IMG/VR virus record: IMGVR_UViG_3300022937_000009
Location: 37,437 to 101,436 of that record
Length of the DNA stretch: 64,000 nucleotides
From: a virus
Strand: one strand, 5' to 3'
Shown: piece by piece, positions 11,913 through 63,578 of the stretch
Layout of the letters: the number at the start of each line of letters is the position of its first letter
Numbering within the stretch: the first letter of the stretch is position 1
Notes under the pieces: generated by a model
The model's database searches: none
What the model was told of the DNA's origin: nothing
The model's input: the letters and a program-made list of their open reading frames with translations, nothing else
Made by a program: the position numbers and the translations under genes

Positions 11913-11913
11913 T

Positions 11914-12765
11914 ATGGCAGTAATGAGAATACAATCAGATGGAGATCCTTATCCAGCAAGAGCAGGAGTTACTGTATTAACTAATGATGGTACAACTGCT
12001 CGCGGTGGGTTTGGTGGTGGTAATACTATTTCAGATCAAACTCACGATTTTCAGTTTGAATATAGAGGTGGACAAAATACGTCTAATCCTCATTTGACAA
12101 CATTAGGAGCAATGGGTATCGCTAATAATGGTGTTGTATTATTTAATCCAAGTGCTGCACCTGGACCTTTACCAGGATCACAAATTCAACCACCTCAAGG
12201 TTTTACATATAATGCAGTATTTAATGAATCTGCGTATGGTGTAGATGCATGTGGTGGACATCCTGAGGAAAATGGTGAGTATCATTATCACTCAGGTTCA
12301 TTTTTAATCAACGGTTGGAATAACGCAAAATTTTATGGTTCAAATTCTTATTATAATGATAGCAATTATTCAGGAGATAATTTTAGACATCCTGACGGAC
12401 ACAGTAAAATATTAGGTTGGTGTTTTGATGGCTATCCTTTATATGGACCATACAGTTATGCGGATCCTGCAGATAATACAAGTTTAGTAAGACAAATGTT
12501 AAGTAGTTGGAGAACTCTTGCAACAGAAGCGACGGGTAGAGGATTTACATATGCTCAAGAACCGGCAGGAAGTTTTATAAACGATTATGAGTTTGTAGAT
12601 GGATTAGGAGATCTTGACGAATATAATGGAAGATACCTTGCGTCAACTCCTGATTATCCAACTGGAACTTACGCGTATTTTTTAACTTTTGCAAATGGTG
12701 ATTTTAATACACCGGCTTTCCCATATATTTTTGGGTTAAGTACAAGAGAACAACGCGGTGCATAA
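11914..12765 (+). CDS. YHYH-domain virion-associated protein
   Basis: The 283-aa product contains the two hallmarks of the YHYH family (Pfam YHYH type). One is the motif Y123-H-Y-H126 after CGGHPEENGE. The other is GWCFDGYPLYGP, with G173-P179. The family is of unknown biochemical function, but its conserved His, Cys and Asp residues suggest metal binding. In cellular genomes I associate it with secreted proteins in metal- or redox-related contexts. No signal peptide is seen. The gene starts two bases after the gp7-like gene and is followed by two genes that carry copper-type cupredoxin domains. This makes a virion metal-binding role plausible, though it remains inference. Confidence 0.75.
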   Translation: MAVMRIQSDGDPYPARAGVTVLTNDGTTARGGFGGGNTISDQTHDFQFEYRGGQNTSNPHLTTLGAMGIANNGVVLFNPSAAPGPLPGSQIQPPQGFTYNAVFNESAYGVDACGGHPEENGEYHYHSGSFLINGWNNAKFYGSNSYYNDSNYSGDNFRHPDGHSKILGWCFDGYPLYGPYSYADPADNTSLVRQMLSSWRTLATEATGRGFTYAQEPAGSFINDYEFVDGLGDLDEYNGRYLASTPDYPTGTYAYFLTFANGDFNTPAFPYIFGLSTREQRGA

Positions 12766-12768
12766 TCA

Positions 12769-12776
12769 AATAAATA
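12769..12776 (+). promoter_or_regulatory. Late promoter box AATAAATA
   Basis: This late-type box lies in the 38-bp gap, 27 nt before the start of the cupredoxin-containing tail protein gene at 12804. Confidence 0.5.
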
Positions 12777-12803
12777 TTAATTTAGAATTTTAGAGGAAAT
12801 GCT

Positions 12804-42135: not shown

Positions 42136-45100
42136 GTATAAAGGTTAAGGTTAACTCCTCGAAATCTATTCGAGCAGTACCTAAACAAGATACTACCACA
42201 AGTATCGTTGCTCCAGGAGAAAGAAAACCTGTAATCGTTCCTGATTCAGTTGTTCTTGGTATTGATACGATTGGTGCATATGTTCAAGCAGTTGATGCTG
42301 GGCAAGGTATCATTGTAACACCTGAAAGCGATACTGAACTTGCTAATCTCGTTATTTCCCACGCAAATACATCAGTTGAAATCTCAACAAATAATGATGT
42401 ACTCGAATTTACACGAAATGTTGATATTGATCAATTTGGTCATGTCACAAATTTCTATAATACAAGTTTATCTCCTTTAAACTTTACTGCTAACAGCACA
42501 AATATTCAAGCAAAAGATATTACATTAGGTAATACTTCATTAACTATTGGCGAATCAACGACAGAAATTACTGGTTTAACAAGAGTTGATGTTGGAGAAC
42601 TTACTCTAACACAAGATGGAATATTAGGTGTAGATGATATTCGTTTAGTTCCTGGAGAAGTTGACGACGTTATTAACGTTACTGATCACAGAATATCAAA
42701 TCTTAAAAACCCAATTTTTCCACAAGATGCTGTTACAGTTAACTATTTAGAACAAGAATTAGGACAGGTCGGAGATCCTGTTGACCCAGAAGATGTTGCT
42801 AACAAAAGATACGTAGATAATGCGCAATTAGATATGTTAGCAAGAAATGTTGTTCTTGCAGCAACAACCGTAGATTTAGGTGGAACCTATACTAGTGGTA
42901 ATTCTTCTTTCTCCGACACAATTAATTTATCACCAGCAGCCGTTATCGATATAGATGGTGTAACTGACTGGGAACTTGGTGATGGATTGTTAGTCAAAGA
43001 CCAGACTGACCCTAAACAGAATGGCCGTTATGAGTTGATTCAAGTTGGCGCCTTAGCTGATGATTGGATTTTCCAGAGAGATCGGTATACTGATGAAACC
43101 TCAGAGTATGGACTTACTCTGTCCGAAATACCTGGATCTTTTGTATTTGTAACAGATGGTACTCTTAACGGCCAAACTGGGTGGGTTGCAACAGTTGGAG
43201 ATGCAGAAACATTTGCATTAAATACTGACGATATTATCTACAAACAATTCCAAGGAAAGGGTTTAGATGGTAGAGGTTTAACTCTTACTGATAACACTCG
43301 ATTTGATATAGATTATACTCAAACCTTCGAACAGATTAATGGAAAAGACGATAGTCTTATTATATCATCAAATGTCGTAGATGTCAATAGTTCTGGTGGA
43401 TTTATTATTCCAGTTGGTACAACTTTAGAAAGACCAACACCAGATCAAGGAATGATTCGTTATAATACATCAGATTCAAGATTTGAAGCATATAATGGAA
43501 TAGCATGGACAGGTTTAGGTGGTGTAGTTGATGTCGATCAAGATACTAAGATTATTGCTGAAAATAGTCCAGGATCAGATAACGACCAATTAAAATTCTA
43601 TACTGCAAATACTGTTGTAATGCAACTTCAATCAGATGGTGATTTATATTTTGGTTCGAATCTTAATAAGTTAGTTATTGACTATAATTCTGGTGATGCA
43701 ACATTTAAAGGTCTAGTCAATTTTGATTCTACTGGTGCTATTGTAATTCCAGACGGTACCACAGCAGAAAGACCAACTGCAGAACGTGGTATGATTCGAT
43801 TCAATATTTCGGATCAACAATTTGAAGGATATGATGGAACTGCTTGGAAAGGTCTTGGTGGTGTTATTGATGTCGATCAAGACACGAAAATTATTGCAGA
43901 AAATACACCAGGTAGTGATAATGACCAATTAAAATTCTTTACAGCAAACACTGAAAGATTAAGATTAGATACCGACGGCGATTTTAAATTTGGTGATGGT
44001 CTAGATAAATTTACTATAGATTGGGCAACTGGTGCTGTTGATATTAACAGCAGTTTAGAAGTTGATACACTTAATCTCACCGGCCTTACTCAAAATCGCG
44101 TTGTATTTGTTGGTGCAAATGGACAATTAGTAGACGATAATAGATTACGTTTTTCTGCCAATACTTTTACGGTTGAAGGTAATGCAGACATTCATGGTAA
44201 TCTTACTCTCGGCGGAAATATTCGAATTGGTGATGCCAATGTAGATACAATTAACGTTGTTGCCGATTTTACTTCTGACTTAATTCCAGACGCAACACTT
44301 ACATATAGTTTAGGTTCTATTAATAAAAATTGGAATAGAGTATTTACACCTACACTTAAGAGTGATAGCGGTGTTATAACAATAGATGAAACTGGCGCAT
44401 TAAATATTCCTGTAGGTTCAACAAGTGATAGACCTACACCTACGACTGGTATGCTACGTTATAATACGACTGATGCTAGGTTTGAAGGATATGACGGAAA
44501 TATTTGGGCTGGGCTTGCAGGCTCAGTTATTGACGTTGACCAAGATACAAAAATTATTGCTGAAACTTCACCAAATGCTGATAATGACGAATTACAATTC
44601 TTTACCGCCGGTGTACAAAGATTCTATGTTTCTAATAATGGTGTTATCGCCACTGCAGCAAATACTGATTTAACGTTTGATCCAAGCGGTAATATTAATG
44701 TTAGTAATAATATTATAACAGGTGTTGGTGATCCTGTCAACCCTTCTGATGCAGTTAATTTAAGATTTATTAATGACAATTTCAGTTCGAACTTAGACAT
44801 TACAGATGGTGCTAATACAGGAGTAATTGACTTACTCGATTCACCTAGAATTTATATTGGTACAGGTTTAGAATTAGGTGCAAATACAGATCTAGCCAAT
44901 AACGAATTTGAAATCGGTCTTGAAGATACTGGCGTAACCGCAGACCTATACGGTACTGATGGATTTACTCCTCGTATTCGAGTTGATGCTCAAGGTCGTA
45001 TTACATTCGCGACAGAAATACCAGTAGAATTACAAGCGAACGCGATTCCTGACTTTACAGAAACTGTACACGACCTTGTCGGTGAAATGATGAGGAATAA

Positions 45101-48849: not shown

Positions 48850-48896
48850 GAAAAGTAATTACAATTTAAATCGCCTATCTGGGGAGAGTGAACCGA

Positions 48897-51800
48897 ATGG
48901 CAAATGACAAAAAATTTATAGTCAAGAATGGACTCTTGACTCCTGAAAATGCTGTTATTGGTAGTACTACCGATAATGGTGTTGATCAACTTCAAGTTAC
49001 AGGAACAACAAATTTATCAGGTGAAACTAGTATATCTAGTAATACCGCGTCGTCTGCCACTCTCGATGTTCATAATTTCTTAGGTGCTGGTTCTTCTACA
49101 ATCGTAGCCACATTCCGTGGTGATTCTGATGCTCTTCAAGTTAAAAATATTGGCACCGGCGATTATTCAATCGTTAACACTCAACAAAATAATGGTATTA
49201 TCTTCTATGATAGTACACCAGGTGTTGTTATTCAATATAATGGTAGTGACCGTTTAAATATTGATTCAACAGGAAATCACTTTACTGGTTTATCAACAAC
49301 AGATATTGATGGAAACAGAATTATTACCACGGCCGATGAGGGTCCTGGTAATGGTTTTGATGCAGACACAGTTGATGGTTTAGAAGCTTCTCAATTTGTT
49401 CGTGCTGATGTCGATGACATTATGGCTGGTAGTTATACCATTCAACAAAATTTAACAATTGATGGTGATCTTACAGTTTCAGGTAATACAACTTATGTAG
49501 ATACCGAAACAATTCTTTTATCGGACAATATTCTTACTCTTAATGCAAATCATTCTGGTGCACCTACACAAGATGCAGGTTGGGAAGTTAACCGTGGATC
49601 TTCAGCAAATTCTGGAGTTCTTTGGGATGAAACAAATGATTGGTTTAAACTCAACTCAGCTGGAACCGACTTAGGTCGTATTATTACAACAGCCGATGAA
49701 GGTGCTAATAATGGATTTGATGCAGATACGGTTGATGGTTTAGAAGGATACCAATTCTTAAGATCAGATGTTGATGATATTGCTGCAGGTAATATAACAA
49801 TTGAAGGTAATCTTACTGTTGGAGATAATGCAGGTCCTGCACAAATTACTCTTGCAGGAACAGGCGCAGATGGTGTTATCTATTCTAATAATGGCGATGC
49901 TGGATTCTTAGATTCAAATTCTAGTTGGTCGTTAAAAGTAGACCAAAATAGAGACGTATATATCGGAAGAGATTTAAGAACAGATAGACATCTTGTAGCA
50001 GATGAAAATATTACCGCGACAACTGGTAATATTTCAGCAACAGCGGGTTCAGTAAGTGCAGGAACAACAGTCGCTGCAGGAACAACAGTTACTGCAGGTA
50101 CAGACGTAATTGGACAAAGATTTTTAGATGCAGATAATAATAACTATTATGTAAATCCTGCTGATACTTCTGTAATGAATAATATAGGAATTGATGATGA
50201 TCTTTTCCATAATAATGATACAGATACAAAAGTTAATTTTACTGATGATACAATAAAGCTTAACACCGGTGGAGCAACAAGATTAACTGCAAATAATAGT
50301 GGCGTATATATTGGTAATATAGTTGCTACTGATATTACTGCAAATACTGTTACTGCTCTTAGTGAAATGGAAGCACCGAGATATTATGATCGAAATAATC
50401 GCGATTATTATGGTGATTTCCATGCTACTTCTCAGATGTCTGGTATTGATATTGATAACTTTATTAGGCATCGTTCAGATTTAAATACCTATATCGGATT
50501 CCCTAATGCCGATGAAGCTGTTATCTACACTGGTGGTACTGAAGCATTATTTGCTAATAACACAATTTTAAGAACGTATAGAACATTACAAGTTTCAAAA
50601 TTCCAAGATGCCGATGACCCAACATATGAAGTAGATCCAGCTGGTACTTCAGTAATGAACACCATAGGAATCGATGATTACATCTTCCATAATGGTGATA
50701 CAAATACTTATTTCGGATTTAACGCAAACGATAATATTCAATTCTTTACTGATGGTACTCAGCGTTTAGAAATTAACGGAACATTTATTACTGGTGCAGT
50801 CGACGGTTTCTTCCCGAACTTATATGCAGGTAGATATTACGACAGTGGTAATGCTACTTATTATGTCGATCCAGCTAGCAGCTCAAGATTAAATGATATT
50901 TCATTAGTTGGTGAAATTATTCACGACGGTGATGCAGATACTTATTTACAGTTTAATGCAGCAGATAGTTTTAGAGTAGTAACTGGTGGTTCTCAAAGAT
51001 TACTTGTTAATAATACTTATGTATTAGCAAATGATCAGATGCGTTCACCTATTTTCTACGATTCAAATAATACAGCTTATTATGGTAATTTTGCCGGCAC
51101 TTCGGTAATGAATGATATTGGTCTTGATGATTATATTGCTCACAATGGTGATACTGATACATACATCGGATTTCCGAATAATGATGAATTTGTAATTTCA
51201 ACCGGCGGAACCATAAGATTTACAGCTAATACTTCTGCAATCACAAGTACTCTTTCTATTACAGCTCCTACAATGTATGCTGGAATCTATTATGATTCAG
51301 ATAATAATGATTATTATTTTGATGGTTCAAGTACGACAACATCATTAACTGCTGCTGGTAAAATTTTAATTGGTAATGTATCTGATGCAGATAGAACAGA
51401 TGATAACACAGGTGATGGTGGTATCACGATTCAGCCAAATGCTGCAGGTACAAATTCAAATATTCAAATTAGTGGATCTAATGGTGGAGCTGCATTACTC
51501 AATTTAAATAGAATTGATATTGGAAATAATCCAACAAATGCATCTAATGTGTATCTTCAGTTTAATGCAGACGGAACTGCTGGCGGACAATTTAGAGGTG
51601 ATGCTTCTGGTAATCTTTATCAAGTTCTAAAAGCAAGTACTAACTGGGGATTCTGGACATCAGGTTATACTGAAGCATTAATTGTTGACGATAGCGCTAA
51701 TGTTATGGTCAATAACTCTACTGGTCCTACATATACAGCAAATGATAATACACCTCTTATAGGCGCAACAACAGACAATAAATTACATGTTGGTGGATCT

Positions 51801-54800
51801 GTTCAATTAGCTAGTTTAGACGATGCTTTTGTTGTTGGAAATGGAACTGCTACATTCTTAAAAGGTGATGAACTAGGATTTGGTTCAGGTGGTGGTTTCT
51901 ACATGGACAACACCACTACAGTTAAGATTCGAAACAATAAAGATTTTTCATCTAACGGCGATTTCTACGCTTCAACTTATTATGACGTTGATAATACAAA
52001 TTATTATGTAGACCCAGCTGGTGATTCACAAATGAATACTATCGACATTGATGACTATATTCGTCATCGTGGAGATACAAACACTTATTTTGGTTTTGAA
52101 GCTAATGATACATTCAGAGTTTGGACAAATGGAGTTCAAAGATTAAACATTGACAATGATTCCGCTGATTTCCAAGGAAATGTTTATGCACCTCGTTATT
52201 ATGACTCTGATGATAATACTTTCTTTATTGATGGTGATGGAACTTCTGTACTTAAATACTTAAATGTTTACAGTGGTGCAACCACTGGTGAATTAAATGT
52301 TGGCCGTAGCTCATCAGAACGTATTCGCCAGTATATTACAGATGGTATAGGTTACATTCAATATTGGCAAGACGAAACTGATACCACAGATCATTCTTTA
52401 AGATTCGAGATTCTATCTACATCAACTGGAACAAATACATTCCAATTTAACAGACCAATTCAGATTACTGGTGGCGGCGGTGGAATGTATGCTTCTATCT
52501 ACTATGATCAAGACGACAATAGATATTATTTAGATCCAAACGCAACAGGTAATGCCGGAAGTAATGCAGGTTTCTTTGGTGGAAATCTATCATTTGGTTT
52601 ACCTGGAAATGGAACAGCATCAAACGCAGAAGCTCAAAAAGGTAGATGGTTATCTATCGAAGGTAATGCAGATACTTCAGGTGAAGGTTCATCAAGAATA
52701 TTCTTCACAGAACATAACAGTTCAACAGGTTCAATGTCTGCTTATGGTATGTCACTTGGATATCGTGGTGGTGCTACAAGTATTGTTGGTTCTGATGGTA
52801 ATACTTGGACAGGTTTAACTCAAATCAATAACGGCGAATGGGGTATGTGGGGCCATGATGGTAGCGCAACCGGTCAATGGGCAATGAAAGGTCCAAGGTC
52901 TGGTAGCTTTGTTGTTGCTTCAGGCTCATTCCGCGCACCAATTTTCTATGATTCAAATAATACTAATTATTTTGTAGATCCAAATTCAGAATCTAGAATG
53001 GATACTATCAAACTTGATGGTAACGCTGTTGTATTAAGAGAGCCTACAGGAGATTATGGTTCATTTGCAGTAAGCGGTGGCGCAAGAAATGGATACTCAG
53101 GATTCAGTATTGATGACCGTTTTGTATTCATGCATGATGGCGCAAATCGTGTAGGTGTTTACAATGATGTAGATAATGAATGGATCTGGTACGCAGATCG
53201 CAACTCATACATGAGATTAATGTATAATGGTGGTGAACAAGCAAGAACAGACAACGGATACTTTAGAGCAAATAACCAATTACGTACTCCAATATTCTAT
53301 GACTTAAATAATACAGCATTCTATGTAGATCCTAACAATACTTCAAATATTCAAAACTTAATTGTTAATGGTACGTTCGAACAAGGTGGTTATTTACAAA
53401 ATAACCCAGTTGAATCTTATTGGTATCAACAAAGTACATATAGTTATAGCACATCACAAACACCTAATACACAATATTACTGGATTCCAGTTGGTGTTAC
53501 AAATAATGGTGGTGCAAAAGGTTTCTTAGAATATTACGCTAAAGACGATGTAAACTATAGTGGTAATGTTATTGGTAGAATTGTAATCAGTTCATGGAAT
53601 AGTAGTTCAATTTCTATTGACCATCATACAACTGGCCCACTCAATAATGGTACACCAAAAGTTCGTGTTGATAATAACAACCGAATTTGGATGCAAATGG
53701 ACAGCATCACTTGGGATTCATATGTAAGATGGCATTGGGTTGCAGTAAGTGGTATCACATTAGAAGATGGTTCAGGCAAACAATTAACAACACCAGCAAA
53801 CTCTATTGAAATCTTAACTGGTCAACAAGTAAGAGCAACTCTTGGAAATGTTACTGGTGCTACTGTTACGAATACAAGACATCACTTTGGTTCAATTGAT
53901 TCGAGACAAGATGTACGCTCACCAATTTATTATGATTTAGATAATACAGGATATTTTGGAGACTTTGCTTCTCGTTCAAGATTTAATACTTTAGAATTAG
54001 GAAACCAAGGTGCTCTAACAGGTTCTACTTCATATCCATTAGGAGTCTATCATAATAACAGATACTTAATTGGTTTCAGAAACAGTGGTGCTGATGCTAA
54101 CTATCCTTGGTTAGTCCACGATAATGTCAATGGTAAATCTGCATTTATTATTCACTTTAATGGTAAAGGCGATAGATTCTATGTTGATGAAGATGGTGAT
54201 ACAGTATTCTCAGGTGATATTACTGCAGACGAAATGTTTGCAAGAAGATTTGTAGATACAGATGATACGAACTTTTATGCTGATCCTGCAGGAACATCTA
54301 ATTTTGCAAGACTAACATTACCACAAAACCCAGTCGGTACCGCATACGCTAGTGTTGCAACACAACCTGACTATTATATTGGTCAGACAATGGGTAATGA
54401 CGATGCTTGGAAGATCTACGGCGAATCACCAAGTGGAACAAACACTGGCGCTCTCATCCTTCAATCTGAAGACGATTACGATGGTAATGAATCTATTCGT
54501 CATAGATTCAAGAGAACATACGGTGCTTACGACACGCGTGATAACTTAATCACATATTTTAACTATGTGTACTCACCAACAAGTTTCCGTGCTCCAATCT
54601 TCTACGATAGTAACGATACTAATTACTATGTAAATCCAGCATCTCAGTCACACATGAATACACTGACTCTTGCTGGTAATAGAATTGGTTTTATTAACTC
54701 AAGCTTTGATGCTGAAATTAGAGTATCTGATGCTAACCCAGATGGTACAGGTGCAACATTTGTATTCTGGGGAGATCAAGTAGAATATAATGCTGAAGTA

Positions 54801-57800
54801 GCAACTGAAGTATTCAGAGCAACAAGACATATGCGTGCTCCAATTTATTATGATTTAAATGATGCTAATTACTATTTAAATCCAAATGGTATTTCAATCT
54901 TAAACGATGTTCGTGCATCTATTTTCTATGATAGAAATGATACAAACTATTATGTAAACCCGGCTTCAAATTCTATTCTACATAATTTAGAATTAAGAAA
55001 TTACGGTTTAAGACTTGCGCGTAATTATACACACAATGGTATTTGGTTTAATGCCGGCACTGATACTAACCACGTATTGTGGAATGACTACTATGGTGGA
55101 CCAAATGCTAGAGGTGCAGCTAACTCAGGATTTGATGGAATACTTTGGAATACTTATCGTGGTATTCAAATACGCGGTGGCTCTAATGGTGCATACAACT
55201 TAATTCGTTCTACAAATTCAGGTAGCAACACCAACGATCACTATGTACAACTTTATGCTGCTAATGTTGAGCAATTAGGTACTCGTGCTGGTTATGGTTA
55301 TGCTCCTAATCAGATGCGTTCACCAATTTATTACGACTATAATGATACAAACTACTACGCTAATCCAGCTGGAACAACAAGATTCTATGAACAACGACTT
55401 ATATACAGATTACATATTGGTGATGAGTCTAATTTATATAATGGCGTACTTCAAGAAACACGTAGACCTGATTTAACAATTAAAGGACAATATCCTCAGT
55501 TGAACCTTATGTCATCTGAGATTAATAACAGTAATCACGGTCCTACATTAAGATTTACAGCCTATGATTCGGCTAACGCATCTTCAGGTAACCTAAAACA
55601 TTGGGTAATTGGTATTCCTGGTACAAATGCAACGATGTTGAGTTTTGGATATAGAGCAAATCCACCATCAAATAACCCACACTACGGTATTGGTAGAGGT
55701 TGGTCATCTGGTGATAATGTTGCTATTATGTGGCTACAAAATGATAGACACGTATATGCTGAAAACGACGTAAGAGCTGACATATTTAGAGATAGAAATT
55801 CTACTGGATACTATGTTGAGCCAAGCAATCTATCAGAACTCTATGATGTAAGACAAAGAGGTTGGTACACAAGAACATTCGCACACTCAGGTTCTGATTT
55901 TGCAAATGGTACAATTGTAAGAACAAGTATTCCTGCGACAGCAACTAACGGTGCTTCATTCGTACTTGAAGCAACAGGTAAATCTTATTCTGGTGATCCA
56001 CCATTTAGTTTTATTGCACAAGGTTATTTGTACAATAATACTATTATCAACTATTCTGGTCAACATTTTGGTAAAGCAGGATTTGGAACACTATATGCAT
56101 TTGAAAATGGTGGAGTATTATGTTTCTGGTGGCCAAGAGTATCTTATTGGAACTCCTTCACTGTTCACGTAAGAAATGCAAATGGCGATGATAGAAACTT
56201 AGTTACAAGTATTTCAAACTCAACATTGCCAAGTTATAGTAAAGGCGTAGGCATTACTATGAAGACCACAGCCGTGTATAACCAAAATATTGGTTCCGGC
56301 GCAATGTATGCAACAATTTACTATGATGCTAACGATGCTGGCTATTACGCAGATCCTAATGGCAATTCACAATTCTCTAGATTGTATCTAAATGCAGATC
56401 TTAGAATGCAAGGTGGCGCGCCTATTTACTTCTACACAAGTTCAGGTTCCTTACGTGGATATATTCGTGCAACTGAAACTAATGATTCTCACTTTGAATT
56501 TGCTACATCAGGTGGAGAGGACTTCATCTTCCGTGATGGTGGATTCGGAGGTTCTTGGAATCAAATTATTCGCGGTAACGGTCAAGTATTAATTGCTAGT
56601 CGTCTTGATACACCGATTATCTATGATAGGAATAATACTGGCTATTATGTTGACCCGAATGGTTCTACACAATTAAGAACAGTTTATGCTAATGATTGGT
56701 TTAGACCACAAGGTAACACCGGTCTTTATTTCCAATCTTATGGACATGGTTTATGGGCTCCTGAATCTGAAGGAAACTCATACGGTAACGTAGCTACATA
56801 CGGTAGCGGTAGAAACGGTTGGAGAGGTTATGGATTAGGTTCACGTTGGGTATTAATGAGTACTGGTGGAGATAATATCGGTATTCATGATAACTCTAGA
56901 ACTTGGATGTATTATTGGAATGGTAGTTATCACCAATATAATTATGGTTATCTGCAAGCTCAAGGTTCTATGAGAGCGCCTATCTTCTATGATACCAATG
57001 ACACTGGTTATTATTTCAATGGTGCTTCAGATAACAGTACAAGATTCCGTGGTGTTAATAACCTAACAATGGCATTCATGGGTCTTTCTGGTCAAACAAG
57101 ATCAAGTAAAGAATACTATGCAGCTAGACCTCGTATAACAGGAGATACAAACTACTGGACTGGTTCAGTCGGTTGGAGCCGGGTAAATATGAACACGGTT
57201 GCCGACTGGGGTTCAGGCTTCTTTGATTCATGGAGTAATCCACCTAACCAGCCTTCAGGTACATCACACTGGGTCGGTGTTCAAGCCTATCACTACACTA
57301 ATGGTTCAGCAAGATACGGTTGGCAGCTGGCTGGTGGTCCTATCTCAGGATTGTGGTTCCGTAATACTTGGTCCGGCTTTAGTAGCTGGAAGAAAGTCGC
57401 GATGCATGGTGTTAATGAATATTCTGGTTCATTCTACGCATCCATTTACTACGATTCTGATAATACTGGTTATTATTGCGATCCAAATGGTACCTCAAGA
57501 TTAAATGCGACTGATGCTAATGAACATTACACTTATGGTTGGTTCCGCAACAGAAACTCTGGTAATGGATTATATAACCAAGCTACCGGAATGCATTTCT
57601 ACTCCAATAATGGATACTACAAGTATGCAGGTGGAGGCTATAGTTATGGTGGTCTAGTAGCATATAGAAACTACGAATCAGATTTAAGAGGTTATGCAGG
57701 ATATTGGGACGGAAACGGTTTCGGTCTTCTTAATAGTTCTGGTAACTGGCAGGTTCGTATATTCTACGGAAATAGCCACATGGAGCTATACCGTGTTACA

Positions 57801-59210
57801 TACATGAATGATGCTCGCGCATATATCTTCTACGATCGTAATAACACTGCATATTATGCTGACCCAAATGGTAATTCAAGATTTAATGTAACAAGAACAA
57901 ATACGGCTTATGGTGGTAGTGATACTAATAAAGGTCGCTTGCAAGGATATGGAACATGGTCATCTGAATTCCATAAGATGGCTTACATATCATTCGACTG
58001 GAATGCTAACTATGATTATTACTACTATCATGGACTTTCCTCGACGGATATTAATGGTTCGTTTACAGATTCAATGTCACTTAACTCGTTTAATGACATT
58101 AACCTAAGACTTGACTCAAATAATAATAACGGAAACTCTTATGTACGTATTCACGACAATGGTTCTGGTAATTCACAGAACGTAGCATATATTGGTCGTG
58201 AAGGTGGAAACGCTATCGCATACTTCTATAATAGAGTTTATGGTTCTGTATTCTATGACCATGATAGTAGTTATTATGCTAATATGAATACCTGGTCTCG
58301 TTTCTGGGGTCTTGGAACATTCTATCTACGTAATAACTATGATGTTTCAACTAACCACGAATATGGTGTAGCGTTCGCTAACAACCAATCAACTGCTTAT
58401 CGTGTATATCGTGAAGGCGGTGGTTGGAGCTATCCATATCCTGACTTACGTATCGCATTCCATACTGGTTTGAAATTTGGTGCTAACCCATCATATGAAG
58501 GTATGCGTTTCTATACTGATTATAACATGGCAAGCTTGGTATGGCAGTTCAACGGTGGTTCGAACTACTCTTACCAGTATCGTTGGAACAACTTAACTGG
58601 CTATCACGGTATTTACTCTGGTATTAACGGCGCTCACTTCTATCCTAACAACGCATCTTACGGTTCTTGGAGAGTTCAAGGTTCTCGTAACGGTTGGGGT
58701 GGTATGCAGTTTGATAACAACATCTGCTTGATGATGAACTATACAGAGCATGGTTTCTATAGTACATCGTTTGGTTGGAGATTATATCTAAACGGTTCAG
58801 TATATACACCAGGTAACGTTGTTGCTTATTGGTCAGATAGAAGATTGAAAGAAAATATTCAAGAACTTCCAAGAGGTGAAGGTCTTGATACGATCATGAA
58901 ACTGAAACCAAGTCGATTTAATTGGAAGAAAGAAGCCGAACAAGTAACAGCTGGTGTTATTGAAGGTGGAATGGAAGAAGTCGCTGTTATTGCTCAAGAA
59001 ACACAAGATGTAATACCTAATTCTGTAGTTATAAATAAAGCTGGTAACGGCGGCAAAGACAAAATTATGGTTGATGGTGAGGAGCTTAAAGACTTCCTCA
59101 CAGTTAACTATGACAAGATTACACCATTCTTAATACAAGCAGTTAAAGACTTAAAATCAGAATTAGATGAATTGAGAGAAGAAGTAAAATTTTTACGAGG
59201 AGACAAATAG
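48897..59210 (+). CDS. Giant tail fibre (3437 aa) with YYD repeats and S74 chaperone
   Basis: The ATG at 48897 is chosen over a GTG nine bases upstream. The GGGGAG ribosome-binding site is correctly spaced for the ATG, and MANDKKFIVKNGLLTPENAV is the family-typical N-terminus. A stalk module (GDLTVSGNTTYVDTETI) is followed by 24 copies of a unit with the core I-(F/Y)-YD-x-(N/D)-(N/D)-T-x-YY-x-(D/N)P, from about residue 400 to 3130, separated by variable globular inserts. One insert at about nt 57120-57410 (VGWSRVNMNT, SGFSSWKKVAMHG) resembles pyocin-knob receptor-binding tips. The protein ends in an S74 chaperone (WSDRRLKENI, S3313). It is the best candidate for a main receptor-recognising long fibre. 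Confidence 0.85.
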   Translation: MANDKKFIVKNGLLTPENAVIGSTTDNGVDQLQVTGTTNLSGETSISSNTASSATLDVHNFLGAGSSTIVATFRGDSDALQVKNIGTGDYSIVNTQQNNGIIFYDSTPGVVIQYNGSDRLNIDSTGNHFTGLSTTDIDGNRIITTADEGPGNGFDADTVDGLEASQFVRADVDDIMAGSYTIQQNLTIDGDLTVSGNTTYVDTETILLSDNILTLNANHSGAPTQDAGWEVNRGSSANSGVLWDETNDWFKLNSAGTDLGRIITTADEGANNGFDADTVDGLEGYQFLRSDVDDIAAGNITIEGNLTVGDNAGPAQITLAGTGADGVIYSNNGDAGFLDSNSSWSLKVDQNRDVYIGRDLRTDRHLVADENITATTGNISATAGSVSAGTTVAAGTTVTAGTDVIGQRFLDADNNNYYVNPADTSVMNNIGIDDDLFHNNDTDTKVNFTDDTIKLNTGGATRLTANNSGVYIGNIVATDITANTVTALSEMEAPRYYDRNNRDYYGDFHATSQMSGIDIDNFIRHRSDLNTYIGFPNADEAVIYTGGTEALFANNTILRTYRTLQVSKFQDADDPTYEVDPAGTSVMNTIGIDDYIFHNGDTNTYFGFNANDNIQFFTDGTQRLEINGTFITGAVDGFFPNLYAGRYYDSGNATYYVDPASSSRLNDISLVGEIIHDGDADTYLQFNAADSFRVVTGGSQRLLVNNTYVLANDQMRSPIFYDSNNTAYYGNFAGTSVMNDIGLDDYIAHNGDTDTYIGFPNNDEFVISTGGTIRFTANTSAITSTLSITAPTMYAGIYYDSDNNDYYFDGSSTTTSLTAAGKILIGNVSDADRTDDNTGDGGITIQPNAAGTNSNIQISGSNGGAALLNLNRIDIGNNPTNASNVYLQFNADGTAGGQFRGDASGNLYQVLKASTNWGFWTSGYTEALIVDDSANVMVNNSTGPTYTANDNTPLIGATTDNKLHVGGSVQLASLDDAFVVGNGTATFLKGDELGFGSGGGFYMDNTTTVKIRNNKDFSSNGDFYASTYYDVDNTNYYVDPAGDSQMNTIDIDDYIRHRGDTNTYFGFEANDTFRVWTNGVQRLNIDNDSADFQGNVYAPRYYDSDDNTFFIDGDGTSVLKYLNVYSGATTGELNVGRSSSERIRQYITDGIGYIQYWQDETDTTDHSLRFEILSTSTGTNTFQFNRPIQITGGGGGMYASIYYDQDDNRYYLDPNATGNAGSNAGFFGGNLSFGLPGNGTASNAEAQKGRWLSIEGNADTSGEGSSRIFFTEHNSSTGSMSAYGMSLGYRGGATSIVGSDGNTWTGLTQINNGEWGMWGHDGSATGQWAMKGPRSGSFVVASGSFRAPIFYDSNNTNYFVDPNSESRMDTIKLDGNAVVLREPTGDYGSFAVSGGARNGYSGFSIDDRFVFMHDGANRVGVYNDVDNEWIWYADRNSYMRLMYNGGEQARTDNGYFRANNQLRTPIFYDLNNTAFYVDPNNTSNIQNLIVNGTFEQGGYLQNNPVESYWYQQSTYSYSTSQTPNTQYYWIPVGVTNNGGAKGFLEYYAKDDVNYSGNVIGRIVISSWNSSSISIDHHTTGPLNNGTPKVRVDNNNRIWMQMDSITWDSYVRWHWVAVSGITLEDGSGKQLTTPANSIEILTGQQVRATLGNVTGATVTNTRHHFGSIDSRQDVRSPIYYDLDNTGYFGDFASRSRFNTLELGNQGALTGSTSYPLGVYHNNRYLIGFRNSGADANYPWLVHDNVNGKSAFIIHFNGKGDRFYVDEDGDTVFSGDITADEMFARRFVDTDDTNFYADPAGTSNFARLTLPQNPVGTAYASVATQPDYYIGQTMGNDDAWKIYGESPSGTNTGALILQSEDDYDGNESIRHRFKRTYGAYDTRDNLITYFNYVYSPTSFRAPIFYDSNDTNYYVNPASQSHMNTLTLAGNRIGFINSSFDAEIRVSDANPDGTGATFVFWGDQVEYNAEVATEVFRATRHMRAPIYYDLNDANYYLNPNGISILNDVRASIFYDRNDTNYYVNPASNSILHNLELRNYGLRLARNYTHNGIWFNAGTDTNHVLWNDYYGGPNARGAANSGFDGILWNTYRGIQIRGGSNGAYNLIRSTNSGSNTNDHYVQLYAANVEQLGTRAGYGYAPNQMRSPIYYDYNDTNYYANPAGTTRFYEQRLIYRLHIGDESNLYNGVLQETRRPDLTIKGQYPQLNLMSSEINNSNHGPTLRFTAYDSANASSGNLKHWVIGIPGTNATMLSFGYRANPPSNNPHYGIGRGWSSGDNVAIMWLQNDRHVYAENDVRADIFRDRNSTGYYVEPSNLSELYDVRQRGWYTRTFAHSGSDFANGTIVRTSIPATATNGASFVLEATGKSYSGDPPFSFIAQGYLYNNTIINYSGQHFGKAGFGTLYAFENGGVLCFWWPRVSYWNSFTVHVRNANGDDRNLVTSISNSTLPSYSKGVGITMKTTAVYNQNIGSGAMYATIYYDANDAGYYADPNGNSQFSRLYLNADLRMQGGAPIYFYTSSGSLRGYIRATETNDSHFEFATSGGEDFIFRDGGFGGSWNQIIRGNGQVLIASRLDTPIIYDRNNTGYYVDPNGSTQLRTVYANDWFRPQGNTGLYFQSYGHGLWAPESEGNSYGNVATYGSGRNGWRGYGLGSRWVLMSTGGDNIGIHDNSRTWMYYWNGSYHQYNYGYLQAQGSMRAPIFYDTNDTGYYFNGASDNSTRFRGVNNLTMAFMGLSGQTRSSKEYYAARPRITGDTNYWTGSVGWSRVNMNTVADWGSGFFDSWSNPPNQPSGTSHWVGVQAYHYTNGSARYGWQLAGGPISGLWFRNTWSGFSSWKKVAMHGVNEYSGSFYASIYYDSDNTGYYCDPNGTSRLNATDANEHYTYGWFRNRNSGNGLYNQATGMHFYSNNGYYKYAGGGYSYGGLVAYRNYESDLRGYAGYWDGNGFGLLNSSGNWQVRIFYGNSHMELYRVTYMNDARAYIFYDRNNTAYYADPNGNSRFNVTRTNTAYGGSDTNKGRLQGYGTWSSEFHKMAYISFDWNANYDYYYYHGLSSTDINGSFTDSMSLNSFNDINLRLDSNNNNGNSYVRIHDNGSGNSQNVAYIGREGGNAIAYFYNRVYGSVFYDHDSSYYANMNTWSRFWGLGTFYLRNNYDVSTNHEYGVAFANNQSTAYRVYREGGGWSYPYPDLRIAFHTGLKFGANPSYEGMRFYTDYNMASLVWQFNGGSNYSYQYRWNNLTGYHGIYSGINGAHFYPNNASYGSWRVQGSRNGWGGMQFDNNICLMMNYTEHGFYSTSFGWRLYLNGSVYTPGNVVAYWSDRRLKENIQELPRGEGLDTIMKLKPSRFNWKKEAEQVTAGVIEGGMEEVAVIAQETQDVIPNSVVINKAGNGGKDKIMVDGEELKDFLTVNYDKITPFLIQAVKDLKSELDELREEVKFLRGDK
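50120..58290 (+). repeat. 24 coded YYD-type fibre repeats
   Basis: The unit has the pattern (F/Y)YD-x-(N/D)-(N/D)-x-x-(Y/F)(Y/F)-x-(D/N)P-x-x-x-S. I counted 24 copies by reading the protein. Spacing varies from about 30 to over 200 residues because different domains sit between the copies. Confidence 0.85.
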
Positions 59211-59213
59211 ATT

Positions 59214-59621
59214 ATGGCACTCATTAAATCATATGAACTAAACTCTGGATTAGAATGTCCTGAAGCATATCACGTTATTCATAATGTTGAAACGAAAAAA
59301 CGTGTTGTTGATGACCAAGATCCAGGTGGTGTAAGACCAGACAATTCACCAGATCATGCGTGGAAAGCTGGTTATTACGGAAGAGTATCGGTTGTAGTAT
59401 ATGCTAGTAGAGCAGCTCGAGAAGCTGGTAAACAAGCAATTGCAGCATACGCACAATATCCTACTGATGTTCCTGGAGGAGACTTTCAAGGAGAAATTAA
59501 TATTATGCAAGTAGAGGATATGAATTTTACAATTGACCTAGCATCAGAAAAAAGTATTATAGAACAAGGTTATGATCACCTAATGACTCTACCTACTTGG
59601 TCTGATGCGGTTAACGATTAA
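59214..59621 (+). CDS. Small protein, unknown, late fibre operon
   Basis: I do not recognise this 135-aa protein. It starts ALIKSYELNSGLECPEAYHV and contains a helical middle (SRAAREAGKQAIAAYAQYPT). There is no signal peptide or membrane segment. It starts three bases after the giant fibre stop, with its AGGAG ribosome-binding site inside that gene's end. It is therefore co-expressed with the fibre and could be a fibre adaptor or assembly factor. Confidence 0.7.
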   Translation: MALIKSYELNSGLECPEAYHVIHNVETKKRVVDDQDPGGVRPDNSPDHAWKAGYYGRVSVVVYASRAAREAGKQAIAAYAQYPTDVPGGDFQGEINIMQVEDMNFTIDLASEKSIIEQGYDHLMTLPTWSDAVND

Positions 59622-59622
59622 T

Positions 59623-59630
59623 TATAAATA
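59623..59630 (+). promoter_or_regulatory. T4-type late promoter box TATAAATA
   Basis: This exact late box lies in the 44-bp gap, 35 nt before the start at 59666. Confidence 0.68.
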
Positions 59631-59665: not shown

Positions 59666-60106
59666 ATGGCACTTACATATACTTGGAAAGTTAAAGGTCT
59701 TCGAAAGCAAGACCAAGTTAACAGTGAAGGCGCTACATTAAATGGCGCGGTCGTTCAGACATACTGGGAATGCGAAGGTACCGATGAAAACGGTAATACT
59801 TCTGTGTTCTCTGGTGCAACTCCTTTTTCAGCAGAAAATGTTCCAGCAGGTACATTTGTTGCTTTCGAGGATTTAACAGAAGAAACTGTTCTTGGTTGGA
59901 TCAGAAACGTTGTTGAAGGTGACGGCGGCTATATGGATCATATCGAAGAGCGCATTAGACATGAGATTGGTAAAGTTACTATCGAAGATGCACAAATGCC
60001 TTGGGCCCCTGAAGAAGTAACACCAGTTCCTAATGATAATCTTGAAACTGAAGTGGAAGCTGAAGCAACATCAGGCGGTAATACTGACATTATAGACTCA
60101 GAATAA
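59666..60106 (+). CDS. Small paralogue A, probable DUF7936-type protein
   Basis: The 146-aa product opens with LTYTWKVKGLRKQDQVNSEG and has a middle segment VPAGTFVAFEDLTEETVLGW. It shares this pattern with the next gene (TYTWEILSLKTQNTVNSSGE, then LADFIAFESLTEAKVVEW), so the two are tandem paralogues. This looks like a small family of virion-region proteins in T4-like marine phages that I associate with DUF7936. The function is unknown. The last ~30 residues are acidic and probably disordered, absent from the paralogue. Confidence 0.72.
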   Translation: MALTYTWKVKGLRKQDQVNSEGATLNGAVVQTYWECEGTDENGNTSVFSGATPFSAENVPAGTFVAFEDLTEETVLGWIRNVVEGDGGYMDHIEERIRHEIGKVTIEDAQMPWAPEEVTPVPNDNLETEVEAEATSGGNTDIIDSE

Positions 60107-60119
60107 TAAGGAATAAGAA

Positions 60120-60452
60120 ATGACTTATACTTGGGAAATTCTTAGTCTTAAAACACAAAACACTGTTAATTCCAGTGGTGAATCTTTAACGGATGCAGTA
60201 TTAACTATTAATTGGAGAAGGCATGCAGATAATGGTGCAGGAAACAAAGTATCTATTACTGGTCAATGCCTTCTATCTTCAGAATCTGTATCATTAGCAG
60301 ACTTTATAGCGTTTGAAAGTCTTACTGAAGCTAAAGTTGTAGAATGGCTTGAATCAAAACTTGGTGCAGAGCTTATTGCTGATTATGACAGTTCTTTAGA
60401 GAAAAAATTAAATCAAGACATCGCAACCGATCGAAGCGTTCCTTGGCTTTAA
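60120..60452 (+). CDS. Small paralogue B, probable DUF7936-type protein
   Basis: The 110-aa product is a shorter copy of the upstream gene, with the same TYTW opening, central FIAFESLTE block, VEWL helix and final PW. It lacks the acidic tail. It begins 13 bases after paralogue A, behind an AAGGAATAAGAA ribosome-binding region. It is the last gene before the sigma70-promoted cassette. Function is unknown. Confidence 0.7.
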   Translation: MTYTWEILSLKTQNTVNSSGESLTDAVLTINWRRHADNGAGNKVSITGQCLLSSESVSLADFIAFESLTEAKVVEWLESKLGAELIADYDSSLEKKLNQDIATDRSVPWL

Positions 60453-60459
60453 AATAATC

Positions 60460-60467
60460 AATAAATA
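60460..60467 (+). promoter_or_regulatory. Late promoter box AATAAATA
   Basis: This late-type box lies immediately upstream of the sigma70 promoter and 70 nt before the gene at 60538. The cassette may therefore be read both early and late. Confidence 0.4.
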
Positions 60468-60470
60468 ATA

Positions 60471-60499
60471 TTGACATTTAGTTAAACACGTGTTATAAT
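60471..60499 (+). promoter_or_regulatory. Consensus sigma70 promoter with extended -10
   Basis: TTGACA at 60471-60476, a 17-bp spacer and TATAAT at 60494-60499 form a perfect consensus promoter. TGT precedes the -10, giving an extended -10 (TGn). The predicted start is near 60506, with a ~32-nt leader to the ATG at 60538. This is the only such promoter I noticed in the window. Confidence 0.85.
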
Positions 60500-60506
60500 A
60501 ACACGT
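60488..60506. promoter_or_regulatory. Palindrome over the -10: possible operator
   Basis: ACGTGTT, ATAAT, AACACGT is a perfect 7-bp inverted repeat with a five-base centre. It covers the -10 element and reaches the expected transcription start. It could be an operator for a repressor. No nearby regulator gene is visible in the window. Confidence 0.5.
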
Positions 60507-60537
60507 AGAATAGTATGATTTATATCATGGAGATATT

Positions 60538-61584
60538 ATGCACGATTTACGGCATTATGGCCTAGTCCATTGGGCGTTGAAAAGAGGCGGGAGTATTCAT
60601 CCTGTCATATTGCCAAAAGAGTTAACTGGCGAAACAGGGATCATGAATCCATCAATATTTTTCCATAAAGGAAAATTATTGCTTAATGTTCGACATGTTA
60701 ATTATACTCTTTATCATTCAGAAGGTAAAAAGTTTCCCCATACTTGGGGACCACTTCAATATATCCATCCGGAAAACGACGTATCTTTAACAACACATAA
60801 TATTATGTGTGAATTAGATGCGCATTTAAATATCGTTCCAGGATCAGCAAATCGAATTAAGATGAATTTAGATACAGGTGAACCAACCTGGAACTTTATT
60901 GGTCTTGAAGATGGTAGATTGTTTGCTTGGGAAGATAGACTTTTTCTTTGTGGTGTTCGTCGTGATTGTTATGACGACAAAGGTAAAGGTCGAATGGAAA
61001 TGTGTGAAATAGAATTTATTGATGGTGTATGGCAAGAAGTATCTCGAAATCCAATTCCTGCACCAGGAGATGATGGAACATATTGTGAAAAGAATTGGAT
61101 GCCAATTGTCGATATGCCTTGGCATTTTGTAAAATGGTGTAATCCTACAGAAGTTGTAAAATATGATATTAATACACGAACAACAACCACAGTTCATTTA
61201 GACGAATCTCAATTTCGCCCAGATATTTTCTTTAGAGATTTAAGAGGAGGAACTCAAGTACTTCCTATTGGTGATGGCCGACATATGTGCTTTACACATG
61301 AAGTTGATTTATCTAAAGATATATTTCATAGAAAAGATGGCCACTATAATCATCGTATAATCGTCTGGGACAAAGATTGGAATCTTATTAAGTGGACTAA
61401 TGATTTTCATTTCTTGGGCACTCAGATTGATCCAGTAACAGGATATGAATATAATATTGAATTTGCTACTGGTATGCAATTTGTAAACGGCCAAGTTCTT
61501 ATCGTTTTTGGATATCAAGATAATGGAACTTTTATATTGAGAATGCCAGAAGATCTTTTCTTTGAATTTGTGAGTAGAGGATAA
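60538..61584 (+). CDS. Five-bladed beta-propeller, GH130-like glycan enzyme
   Basis: The 348-aa product has the Trp/Asp-rich repeating blades of a glycoside-hydrolase-type beta-propeller. Features typical of GH130 mannoside phosphorylases are visible. These are an early MNPSIFFHKGKLLLNVRH blade, GLEDGRLF with E124, D125 and R127 (the usual motif is ED-P-R), and KNWMPIVDMPWHFVKW. The opening HDLRHYGLVHWALKRGG has no signal peptide, so it acts in the cytoplasm or virion. The expected chemistry is phosphorolysis, hydrolysis or transfer on mannose-type glycans; the exact substrate cannot be read. It leads the sigma70-promoted cassette and is followed three bases later by a TPR-methyltransferase fusion. 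A related non-enzymatic propeller is the alternative. Confidence 0.62.
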   Translation: MHDLRHYGLVHWALKRGGSIHPVILPKELTGETGIMNPSIFFHKGKLLLNVRHVNYTLYHSEGKKFPHTWGPLQYIHPENDVSLTTHNIMCELDAHLNIVPGSANRIKMNLDTGEPTWNFIGLEDGRLFAWEDRLFLCGVRRDCYDDKGKGRMEMCEIEFIDGVWQEVSRNPIPAPGDDGTYCEKNWMPIVDMPWHFVKWCNPTEVVKYDINTRTTTTVHLDESQFRPDIFFRDLRGGTQVLPIGDGRHMCFTHEVDLSKDIFHRKDGHYNHRIIVWDKDWNLIKWTNDFHFLGTQIDPVTGYEYNIEFATGMQFVNGQVLIVFGYQDNGTFILRMPEDLFFEFVSRG

Positions 61585-61587
61585 ATT

Positions 61588-62820
61588 ATGTTGCAAGAAT
61601 TATTGAATGAACACGTACTCGATCCTAAAAATCCAGAAAAGCTTTTTCGTTTAGCACAAGAATATGATGGATTAGAACAAGGAGCTATGGCAGTTTCTTT
61701 ATATCTTAAAACTGCAGACTTAACTAATGATAAACAACTTCAATATAAATGTATGATATTACTTGGTAAGTCATATGAAAGACAAGGTGGAAGAAACTTT
61801 ACTGTTGAAGGTGCTTATCACGATGCTGCGGCTTTAATGCCAGATAGACCAGAAGCACATTTCTTTTTATCAAATCATTATTGCGAAAGAGGAATGTGGA
61901 AACAATGTCTAACTCATGCAAATCTAGGATTAATGGCCGAAAGAGTATTACCTGAAATTCATGTTGGTTATCCAGGAAGAAAAGTTTTAGCCTTTCTTAA
62001 TTCAATGGCTACTTGGTATATTGCTGGTCAACAATCTGGTAAACACAAATTATTTGATTTAAAACATAAAGTTATATTAGAGGGTGAACTTAAAAATAGA
62101 GCTGAGCAAATGCTTAAGCAAATTGGATATCCTGATACTATTCCTTATAAAAAACACGACGAACATCGACTTAAGCATACGTTTCCAGGCTTACAAAGTA
62201 TAATAAAAAATTATTCTAAACATTTTCAAGATATGTTTGTCTTAACTATGTTGAATGGTAAAAGAAATGGAACTTACTTAGAAATAGGATCTGGTCAGCC
62301 ATTTATTCATAATAATACAGCTTTACTTGAAACTAAATTTGGTTGGAAAGGTATTTCTGTTGATAATTCTCCAGCATTATGTTATCAATTTAAAGAAGAA
62401 AGAAATAATACGGTTATATGTTTAGATGCAACAGAAACAAACTGGGAAGATTTATTTGAAAAACATTGTGTAGAACCAACATTTGATTATTTACAAATAG
62501 ATTGTGATGAAGCATCTTTAGACATTTTAAAGAAGCTTCCATTCAATACTCACAAATTTGGTATTATAACATTTGAACATGATTGTTATCGATTAGGAAC
62601 AGAAATACGCGATGAAGCAAGACAAATATTAATGCAACATGGATATAAATTAGTTGTTAGCGATGTTGGATTTACTCCAGAACATTCTTATGAAGACTGG
62701 TATGCACATCCAGATTTAGTTGATATTCCATCTAAATTATTAGCGACATCTAATCATGTTAATTTTATATTTGATTATTTTATGGAACCTTTAACAGAAA
62801 AAAATGAGTTACAAATATGA
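61588..62820 (+). CDS. TPR protein with C-terminal FkbM-like methyltransferase
   Basis: Of 410 residues, about 1-125 are TPR-type helical repeats (LFRLAQEYDGLEQGAMAVSL, then KCMILLGKSYERQ and PEAHFFLSNHYCERGMW). The C-terminal part from about residue 215 reads as a class I SAM-dependent methyltransferase of the FkbM type. Motif I is YLEIGSGQ (E232-Q237), and the acidic motif YLQIDCDEA (D305-E308) stands where FkbM has an IDVEG-like sequence. A later segment (FGIITFEHDCYRLG) fits the fold's fourth strand. FkbM proteins methylate sugars in polysaccharides or natural products. TPR-plus-sugar-enzyme fusions are common in phage glycan genes. The stop overlaps the next start (ATGA). Confidence 0.68.
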   Translation: MLQELLNEHVLDPKNPEKLFRLAQEYDGLEQGAMAVSLYLKTADLTNDKQLQYKCMILLGKSYERQGGRNFTVEGAYHDAAALMPDRPEAHFFLSNHYCERGMWKQCLTHANLGLMAERVLPEIHVGYPGRKVLAFLNSMATWYIAGQQSGKHKLFDLKHKVILEGELKNRAEQMLKQIGYPDTIPYKKHDEHRLKHTFPGLQSIIKNYSKHFQDMFVLTMLNGKRNGTYLEIGSGQPFIHNNTALLETKFGWKGISVDNSPALCYQFKEERNNTVICLDATETNWEDLFEKHCVEPTFDYLQIDCDEASLDILKKLPFNTHKFGIITFEHDCYRLGTEIRDEARQILMQHGYKLVVSDVGFTPEHSYEDWYAHPDLVDIPSKLLATSNHVNFIFDYFMEPLTEKNELQI

Positions 62821-63569
62821 TTACAGTAATAGCAACAGGTGGATTTGATCCAATTCATTCTGGACATATTAAATATTTAAAAGATGCAGCAACCTATGGA
62901 ACAAGACTTATTGTAGGTATTAATTCTGATGAATGGCTCATAAGAAAAAAGGGTAAAAACTTTATGCCTTGGTATGAGCGAGCATCAATTGTAAATGGAT
63001 TAGCAAGTGTTGATAATGTAATGGATTTCGACGATTCAGATGATACAGCAATTGATTGTATAAGAAAAGTAAAAGAAAAATTTCCAAATGACACAATTGT
63101 TTTTGTAAATGGTGGAGATAGAACAAAAGAAAATATTCCAGAAATGATTTTTGATGATGTTGAGTTTGAGTTTGGTGTAGGCGGTTCAGAAAAATCAAAT
63201 AGTTCAAGTTGGATTTTAGAGGAATGGAAACACCCAGTCACAAAACGAAAATGGGGAACATATAAAGTATTAAATAATAATACAACTTGGCAAGTAAAAG
63301 AACTTTCCTTTACTAAAGGAAGATCTTTAAGTGATCAAAAACACTCTCATAGATCTGAACATTGGCACGTAGTCAGTGGTAAAATTAAGATGGATTTAGA
63401 ATATCCAAATGGTGATAGATTAACAAAAACATATAATACTGGTGAGAGTATAGATATTCCTGTTAATACTTGGCATAAAGCAACTAATATTAGTAATGTT
63501 GATGCTAAAGTTATTGAAGTTTGGTTAGGAAATATTCTTACTGAAGATGACATCGAAAGACGAGACTAG
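62817..63569 (+). CDS. Cytidylyltransferase-like / cupin fusion
   Basis: The 250-aa product has two domains. Residues 1-~140 are a nucleotidyltransferase with the GGFDPIHSGH motif (HSGH at 14-17), and later a GGDRTKENIPE segment and SNSSSWIL, as in TagD/HldE-type sugar- or polyol-phosphate nucleotidyltransferases. Residues ~150-245 are a cupin of the mannose-6-phosphate-isomerase type. Metal-site residues H176, H178, E181 and H182 lie in the HSHRSEHWHVVSG region, and H220 lies in the second motif (IDIPVNTWHKATN). The likely job is activating a sugar- or polyol-phosphate to a nucleotide sugar. The architecture parallels bifunctional PMI/GMP proteins but with a different transferase fold. The substrate is unknown. 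Confidence 0.75.
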   Translation: MITVIATGGFDPIHSGHIKYLKDAATYGTRLIVGINSDEWLIRKKGKNFMPWYERASIVNGLASVDNVMDFDDSDDTAIDCIRKVKEKFPNDTIVFVNGGDRTKENIPEMIFDDVEFEFGVGGSEKSNSSSWILEEWKHPVTKRKWGTYKVLNNNTTWQVKELSFTKGRSLSDQKHSHRSEHWHVVSGKIKMDLEYPNGDRLTKTYNTGESIDIPVNTWHKATNISNVDAKVIEVWLGNILTEDDIERRD

Positions 63570-63570
63570 T

Positions 63571-63578
63571 TATAAATA
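63571..63578 (+). promoter_or_regulatory. T4-type late promoter box TATAAATA
   Basis: This exact late box begins two bases after the glycan cassette stop and lies 43 nt before the start at 63622. A second TATAAAT lies 12 bases downstream. Confidence 0.68.

Follow-up and report, generated by a model that had tools for sequence, protein, structure and literature searches.

A probable glycan-tailoring operon behind the tail-fibre gene of a T4-like phage, with an early-type promoter amid late genes

Our analysis supports a model whereby three adjacent genes in an apparently lytic marine phage form an operon that is likely to make and methylate a mannose-type modification. The window, that is, the whole stretch of DNA analysed here (64,000 nucleotides), runs from base 37437 to base 101436 of a virus record 101,436 bases long (IMGVR_UViG_3300022937_000009). 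As judged from gene order across relatives, the core of the cassette is the pair formed by gene 1 and gene 2, and gene 3 is an optional precursor module. We have a good degree of confidence in a glycan-tailoring operon with early plus late transcription. We hold more tentatively, as a conjecture that may well be wrong, that in a widespread lytic T4-like lineage this pair, fixed in the receptor-binding locus, rewrites the glycan recognised by the phage's own fibre, with an early promoter that shifts among three gaps.

Behind a tail-fibre gene (48888-59210; product of 3,440 amino acids) and all on the plus strand come the small gene gpA (59214-59621), which begins 3 bp past the tail-fibre gene, an exact late box, TATAAATA (59623-59630), located 43 bp upstream of the next gene, and two genes for DUF7936 proteins, D1 (59666-60106; PF25590, E 2e-13) and D2 (60120-60452; PF25590, E 5e-16). 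The three open reading frames described in an earlier note on this DNA are all present on the same strand: gene 1 (60538-61584), a propeller with the GH130/GT108 fold as identified by fold and invariant residues; gene 2 (61588-62820), which by fold and domain matches combines TPR helices with an FkbM-type SAM-methyltransferase domain; and gene 3 (62817-63569), in which a cytidylyltransferase/RfaE-like domain (PF01467) is joined to a mannose-6-phosphate-isomerase-type cupin (PF01050). Genes 1 and 2 are separated by 3 bp (61585-61587), and the start and stop codons of genes 3 and 2 overlap in an ATGA (62817-62820). A second exact copy of TATAAATA (63571-63578, plus strand) lies 51 bp upstream of the gene behind the cassette and starts the next late unit.

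Gene 1 is, on its modelled structure, a member of the GH130/GT108 superfamily by fold, not a member of the GH130 family. Its AF2 model (pLDDT 83.7) has a five-bladed propeller fold; the best Foldseek match in the PDB is the mannoside synthase Uhgb_MS (E 5.6e-10), followed by Leishmania GDP-Man-dependent mannosyltransferases (MPT, GT108) and then GH130 phosphorylases, and, ranked by E-value, the top 31 PDB matches are all GH130/GT108 enzymes or annotated glycosidases with that fold (TM 0.42-0.66). The fold search alone worked: a PDB sequence search with the gene-1 profile gave nothing up to E 10, and a profile comparison with GH130 (hhalign) was weak (E 0.009). Because Pfam GH130 (PF04041, cut-off 26 bits) matches 10 of 38 gene-1 homologues (best E 1e-4) and not the window protein, we file gene 1 under the superfamily by fold; the label "GH130-like" given to it previously thus holds for the fold and fails for the Pfam family. 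Residues N37, E124-D125-x-R127 and D328, invariant in 38 gene-1 sequences, occur in the same order as the mannose-site and catalytic residues of GH130, which in Teth514_1789 are N28, E97-D98 and D287 (PMC4264767); D328 aligns weakly with the GH130 Asp (hhalign), and the Asn and EDxR are paired by motif and order only. From the model, gene 1 is a probable beta-mannosyl transferase or phosphorylase. A phosphorylase or mannosidase of this kind might instead degrade beta-mannosides in host glycans, releasing mannose-1-phosphate and serving energy supply or receptor removal, with the methyltransferase acting elsewhere. GH130 enzymes are among the fold matches and are mostly catabolic phosphorylases (PMC8950772), but the top fold match is a synthase, and a gene that is invariably paired with a methyltransferase, often with a sugar-activating gene as well, has a biosynthetic look, which makes a degradative role unlikely. 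We also considered and discarded a cellular origin of gene 1: in all eight genome contigs matched, gene 2 stands alongside gene 1, and five of them, in MAG bins, have the complete gene order of the virus. Nor did Pfam GH130 give a match in 61 genomes from the order that surrounds a Rhodobacteraceae bin.

The AF2 model of gene 2 (pLDDT 93.2) matches the TPR helices of OGT/SPY, that is, an O-GlcNAc transferase-like half, and a SAM-methyltransferase. Its earlier description as TPR-FkbM is borne out for these two folds, whereas the FkbM score of the window protein (PF05050, 18 bits, E 0.003) falls below the Pfam cut-off of 22.7 bits. Among 31 homologues, 10 match FkbM (best E 5e-6), and TPR is also matched. 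A PF05050 search of the genomes of four relatives returned no match, so this Pfam model lacks the sensitivity needed for this branch. The description of gene 3 as a nucleotidyltransferase-cupin fusion is solid. The first domain (about residues 1-135) scores 52.7 bits against PF01467 (cut-off 21; E 6e-14), has an invariant HSGH (HxGH motif) and finds cytidylyltransferases in the PDB; the cupin part (about residues 136-250) scores 79.2 bits against the type II mannose-6-phosphate isomerase cupin PF01050 (cut-off 23.6; E 4e-22, residues 138-248). The heptose-1-phosphate adenylyltransferase model TIGR02199 (HldE/RfaE) gives 70.6 bits, below its equivalog cut-off of 181.5, and the bifunctional GMP/PMI model TIGR01479 gives 71.9 bits over the C-terminus only, below its cut-off of 372.95. 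The fold of gene 1 and the PMI-type cupin of gene 3 are two independent pointers to mannose, and together the folds and domains back the proposal of a set for sugar activation, transfer and methylation.

Genes 1 and 2 are inseparable in our sample. A search of IMG/VR by gene 1 gave 80 loci, in every one of which gene 2 directly follows gene 1. A search by D1, in which the best 80 matches sample the near half of the clade, found genes 1 and 2 behind D1-D2 in 78; among these, nearly all loci with sufficient sequence have gene 3 too, and two D1 loci (L230 and L231) have no cassette. A presence-or-absence comparison across relatives, which the earlier note had proposed, thus came close to invariant presence among the best D1 loci, which the note, if paired with virion-only roles, counted against its reading; its idea of an inserted set is not supported by these counts. 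In freshwater relatives and Synechococcus phage DSL-LC02, the pair has FkbM, radical-SAM/SPASM or DUF6445 domains fused to it, and two loci (L072 and L074) have an FkbM domain on gene 1 itself; these fusions support a joint function of genes 1 and 2. Gene 3 was rejected as a core member, since 60 of 80 gene-3 loci are without genes 1 and 2, and some relatives keep the pair with only a cupin or without any gene 3. One checked gene-3 locus lacking genes 1 and 2 has GT8 and sulfotransferase genes alongside.

The perfect sigma70-type promoter reported upstream of gene 1 is there, TTGACA-N17-TATAAT at 60471-60499 on the plus strand, with an extended -10 (a TG precedes it), 67 bp upstream of the gene 1 ATG. 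It belongs to the same class as the promoters of the replication genes and is retained in relatives, in line with its earlier designation as early-type. The perfect motif occurs 11 times in the record (G000) at contig positions 1-31 kb, among others upstream of the genes for UvsY, DNA polymerase, clamp and dUTPase, and the cassette promoter is the single sense-strand copy in the late region. Four long relatives have 5-25 copies each, and a reversed control has none. Scored with a spacer matrix built from 55 promoters of the window phage and related viruses, with the cassette promoters left out, its spacer reaches 5.55 bits against a class median of 5.15 (p 0.003). Among distinct relatives with a gene-1 identity of at least 72%, which are not independent samples, the promoter is kept in 35 of 35 (32 perfect, three with one mismatch) at a site that varies, upstream of gpA, D1 or gene 1, 54-99 bp from the start codon.

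A functionless chance match in front of a purely late cassette could be argued from the AT-rich DNA, in which the region has 27 loose matches against 22.6 expected, and from the two other perfect matches in the window (three in all with 16-18 spacing, against 0.20 expected), which are antisense and fall within tail-gene coding sequence. We discarded those two as promoters on that ground, and likewise perfect "promoters" 1.8 kb downstream in relatives, which lie inside gene 2 and appear to be spelled by a conserved protein stretch, IDN-5-residues-YN. A chance origin is very improbable for the cassette promoter, given a perfect motif with the class spacer that recurs in all 35 nearer relatives in three alternative gaps; judged by this comparison, the promoter is real rather than accidental. 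Most of the more distant marine relatives (60-67% gene-1 identity) and the freshwater group are without it, so it is a clade feature, and early expression would not be universal. A 19-bp inverted repeat, ACGTGTTATAATAACACGT (60488-60506, plus strand), overlaps the whole -10 and is perhaps an operator. Only two of 500 shuffles gave a repeat of equal length; the repeat is not uniform among relatives, RNA folding z-scores are weak, and as a general operator it was rejected, being significant in the window and not in several relatives.

Early expression would also fit a cassette that puts sugar on phage DNA, as the glucosyltransferases of T4 do. We regard this as the least probable of the readings, because the cassette is tied to tail-fibre genes and not to nucleotide-modifying genes, and because, to our knowledge, TPR-FkbM proteins are not among the known DNA modifiers.

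Late transcription is suggested by boxes on either side of the cassette. A late box had been claimed beside the gene-1 promoter; only the variant AATAAATA (60460-60467, plus strand) is found there, and the exact TATAAATA begins at 59623 and 63571. Across relatives, (N)ATAAATA occurs within 110 nt upstream of D1 in 41 of 43 (background, 0.05 per 110 nt) and upstream of gene 1 in 38 of 45, in only three of them as the exact TATAAATA; a late box stands upstream of the gene that follows the cassette in each of 32 and upstream of gene 2 in none of 45. No intrinsic terminator was found on the sense strand of the interval between D2 and gene 1. From these elements, the cassette probably has two phases of transcription, an early one driven by its own promoter and a late one that reaches it by read-through.

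What the enzymes act on is approached through the neighbouring fibre genes. In the marine clade the order is tail-fibre gene, DUF7936 genes and then cassette. In distant freshwater relatives, which are without D1-D2 and without gene 3, gene 1 starts 43-55 bp past the stop of a collagen-like tail-fibre gene in 12 of 14; this gene, recognised with PHROG for two loci and with tblastn for the rest, belongs to another family than the marine one. The pair sits between tail-fibre genes in DSL-LC02 and is sited elsewhere in S-SCSM2R. The best reading of these arrangements is that the cassette is genetically tied to the receptor-binding fibre, a recurrent link that the earlier note did not have when it weighed host surface against virion. 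Since the tail-fibre gene and the pair go together, the target is most likely a host surface glycan bound by the fibre, whose alteration would bring about exclusion, although as the main target we favour it only tentatively. Almost as likely, and in absolute terms a possibility of somewhat lower standing, the enzymes act on a protein of the virion, be it the tail fibre or another one, with gene 1 adding the sugar, gene 2 docking the fibre by its TPR half and methylating the product, and gene 3 supplying the precursor. In favour of a fibre substrate is the position of the pair, which comes right behind the tail-fibre gene in two settings whose fibres are unrelated and lies between such genes in DSL-LC02, as are the late boxes upstream; the OGT-like TPR of gene 2 and the radical-SAM/SPASM fusions in relatives fit a protein, for instance the fibre, as target, radical-SAM/SPASM domains being usually peptide-acting. 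Virion decoration, however, needs no early promoter, yet the nearer marine relatives retain one, and gene 1 retains 48-50% identity next to fibres of different families, which speaks for a glycan, rather than one fibre protein, as the substrate. It is the early promoter, together with this switch of the neighbouring fibre's family where gene 1 stays conserved, that inclines us to the host glycan.

In our model of a host-glycan target, unmodified host RNA polymerase would read the operon early, along with the replication genes, via the sigma70-type promoter. The cupin of gene 3 would make mannose-6-phosphate and its other domain would activate a sugar or polyol phosphate; gene 1, to go by its fold and motif, would transfer a mannose-type sugar from a sugar-1-phosphate or NDP-sugar donor to a glycan acceptor; and gene 2 would O-methylate that sugar or a neighbour, its TPR half docking substrate or partner. 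The altered host glycan would block superinfection early. Late in infection, read-through from the box upstream of D1 would transcribe the cassette again, and the modification would prevent new phage particles from adhering to debris or to the cell being lysed. The retained promoter looks as if the sugar were needed both early and late, and we suggest exclusion between co-infecting marine phages as a selective force.

By its baseplate genes the phage belongs with the T4-like myoviruses, its nearest neighbours being Sinorhizobium phages phiN3/phiM12 and Caulobacter phage Cr30. Together with DUF7936 relatives that Roseobacter phages carry in the tail-fibre region and three related contigs in a Rhodobacteraceae bin, these neighbours make an alphaproteobacterial host likely, as far as gene content can tell. 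A near DNA search for the window across the phage collection gave no match.

Relatives of single genes and phage-borne sugar clusters are already known. Gene 1 shares its fold with Uhgb_MS, Teth514_1788/1789 and Leishmania MTP of GH130/GT108 (Foldseek E 6e-10 to 1e-7) and, in order, the invariant Asn, Glu-Asp-x-Arg and C-terminal Asp of these enzymes. It differs from them in that the GH130 EDPR becomes ED(G/A/C)R, identity to solved members is 10-14%, the window protein falls below Pfam detection, and a methyltransferase gene always accompanies it. The same pair occurs in two Synechococcus phages, S-SCSM2R (PQ898602) and DSL-LC02 (OR032571), in which a gene-1 homologue with 43% identity, annotated as "MGP protein" or "beta-mannosyltransferase", overlaps a TPR/FkbM gene; unlike the window, these phages lack D1-D2 and the third gene, and the partner has DUF6445 or radical-SAM/SPASM. 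The LPS gene clusters of cyanomyoviruses, which lie near hli/phoH and vary between phages (PMC3037559), are likewise phage-borne surface-sugar genes in T4-like marine phages, whereas the cassette is small, keeps a constant place behind the tail fibre and is equipped with its own early-type promoter. In the open-access literature searched, we found neither the cassette nor a fixed fibre-linked pair nor an early-type promoter of shifting position. The sugar genes of phages are commonly regarded as variable cargo; here the pair stays at the tail-fibre locus in freshwater as well as marine phages. Together with an early-type promoter that the nearer relatives keep, at shifting sites, within a late block, this offers a testable idea of why lytic phages would alter glycans early. 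The serotype-converting glycosyltransferases of temperate phages, of the gtrABC type, are prophage membrane systems. Like them, the cassette would change the receptor and exclude superinfection, but it is a set of soluble enzymes, and the T4-like phage that carries it is apparently lytic. If our model is true, the pair gives a lytic phage its own form of serotype conversion, one that is coupled to the fibre.

Several sigma70-type promoters, including the one before gene 1 (the GH130/GT108-fold propeller gene that opens the cassette), are overlapped in the spacer or the -10 element by inverted repeats whose placement varies (60488-60506 in the window; positions 8127, 15560, 27680 and 30784 of G000, the contig of the same record). 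These repeats, exemplified by ACGTGTTATAATAACACGT and, in relatives, by AACATACGAAAGTATGTT and ATAACACAATAGTGTGTTAT, may be operators; they are not uniform. Two further perfect matches to TTGACA-N17-TATAAT lie antisense, on the minus strand, within a large tail gene (43359-43387 and 44712-44740). Similar matches occur in the genomes of relatives, and such copies probably arise simply because the encoded protein sequence is conserved. In the freshwater relatives L073 and L079-L084, a hairpin with a 14-bp stem, TACTATCATTT...AAATGATAGTA, lies between the tail fibre gene and gene 1 and reaches the gene-1 start codon; it may function in controlling gene-1 translation or in ending fibre transcripts.

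Downstream of the cassette, two to four genes per locus encode proteins that resemble one another, measure at least about 130 aa and belong to no known family (63622 onward in the window; 11085-12987 in the related locus L005). Among freshwater relatives and cyanophages, homologues of gene 1 or of the methyltransferase gene 2 are joined to FkbM, radical-SAM/SPASM or DUF6445 domains (L072, L074 and L077; L003, 10947-13097). Homologues of gene 3, the cytidylyltransferase-cupin fusion, are found in other phages (L090, L096 and L119) within long runs of genes for proteins of 180-320 aa, with a GT8 glycosyltransferase and a sulfotransferase among them in L096; these runs are further phage sugar clusters.
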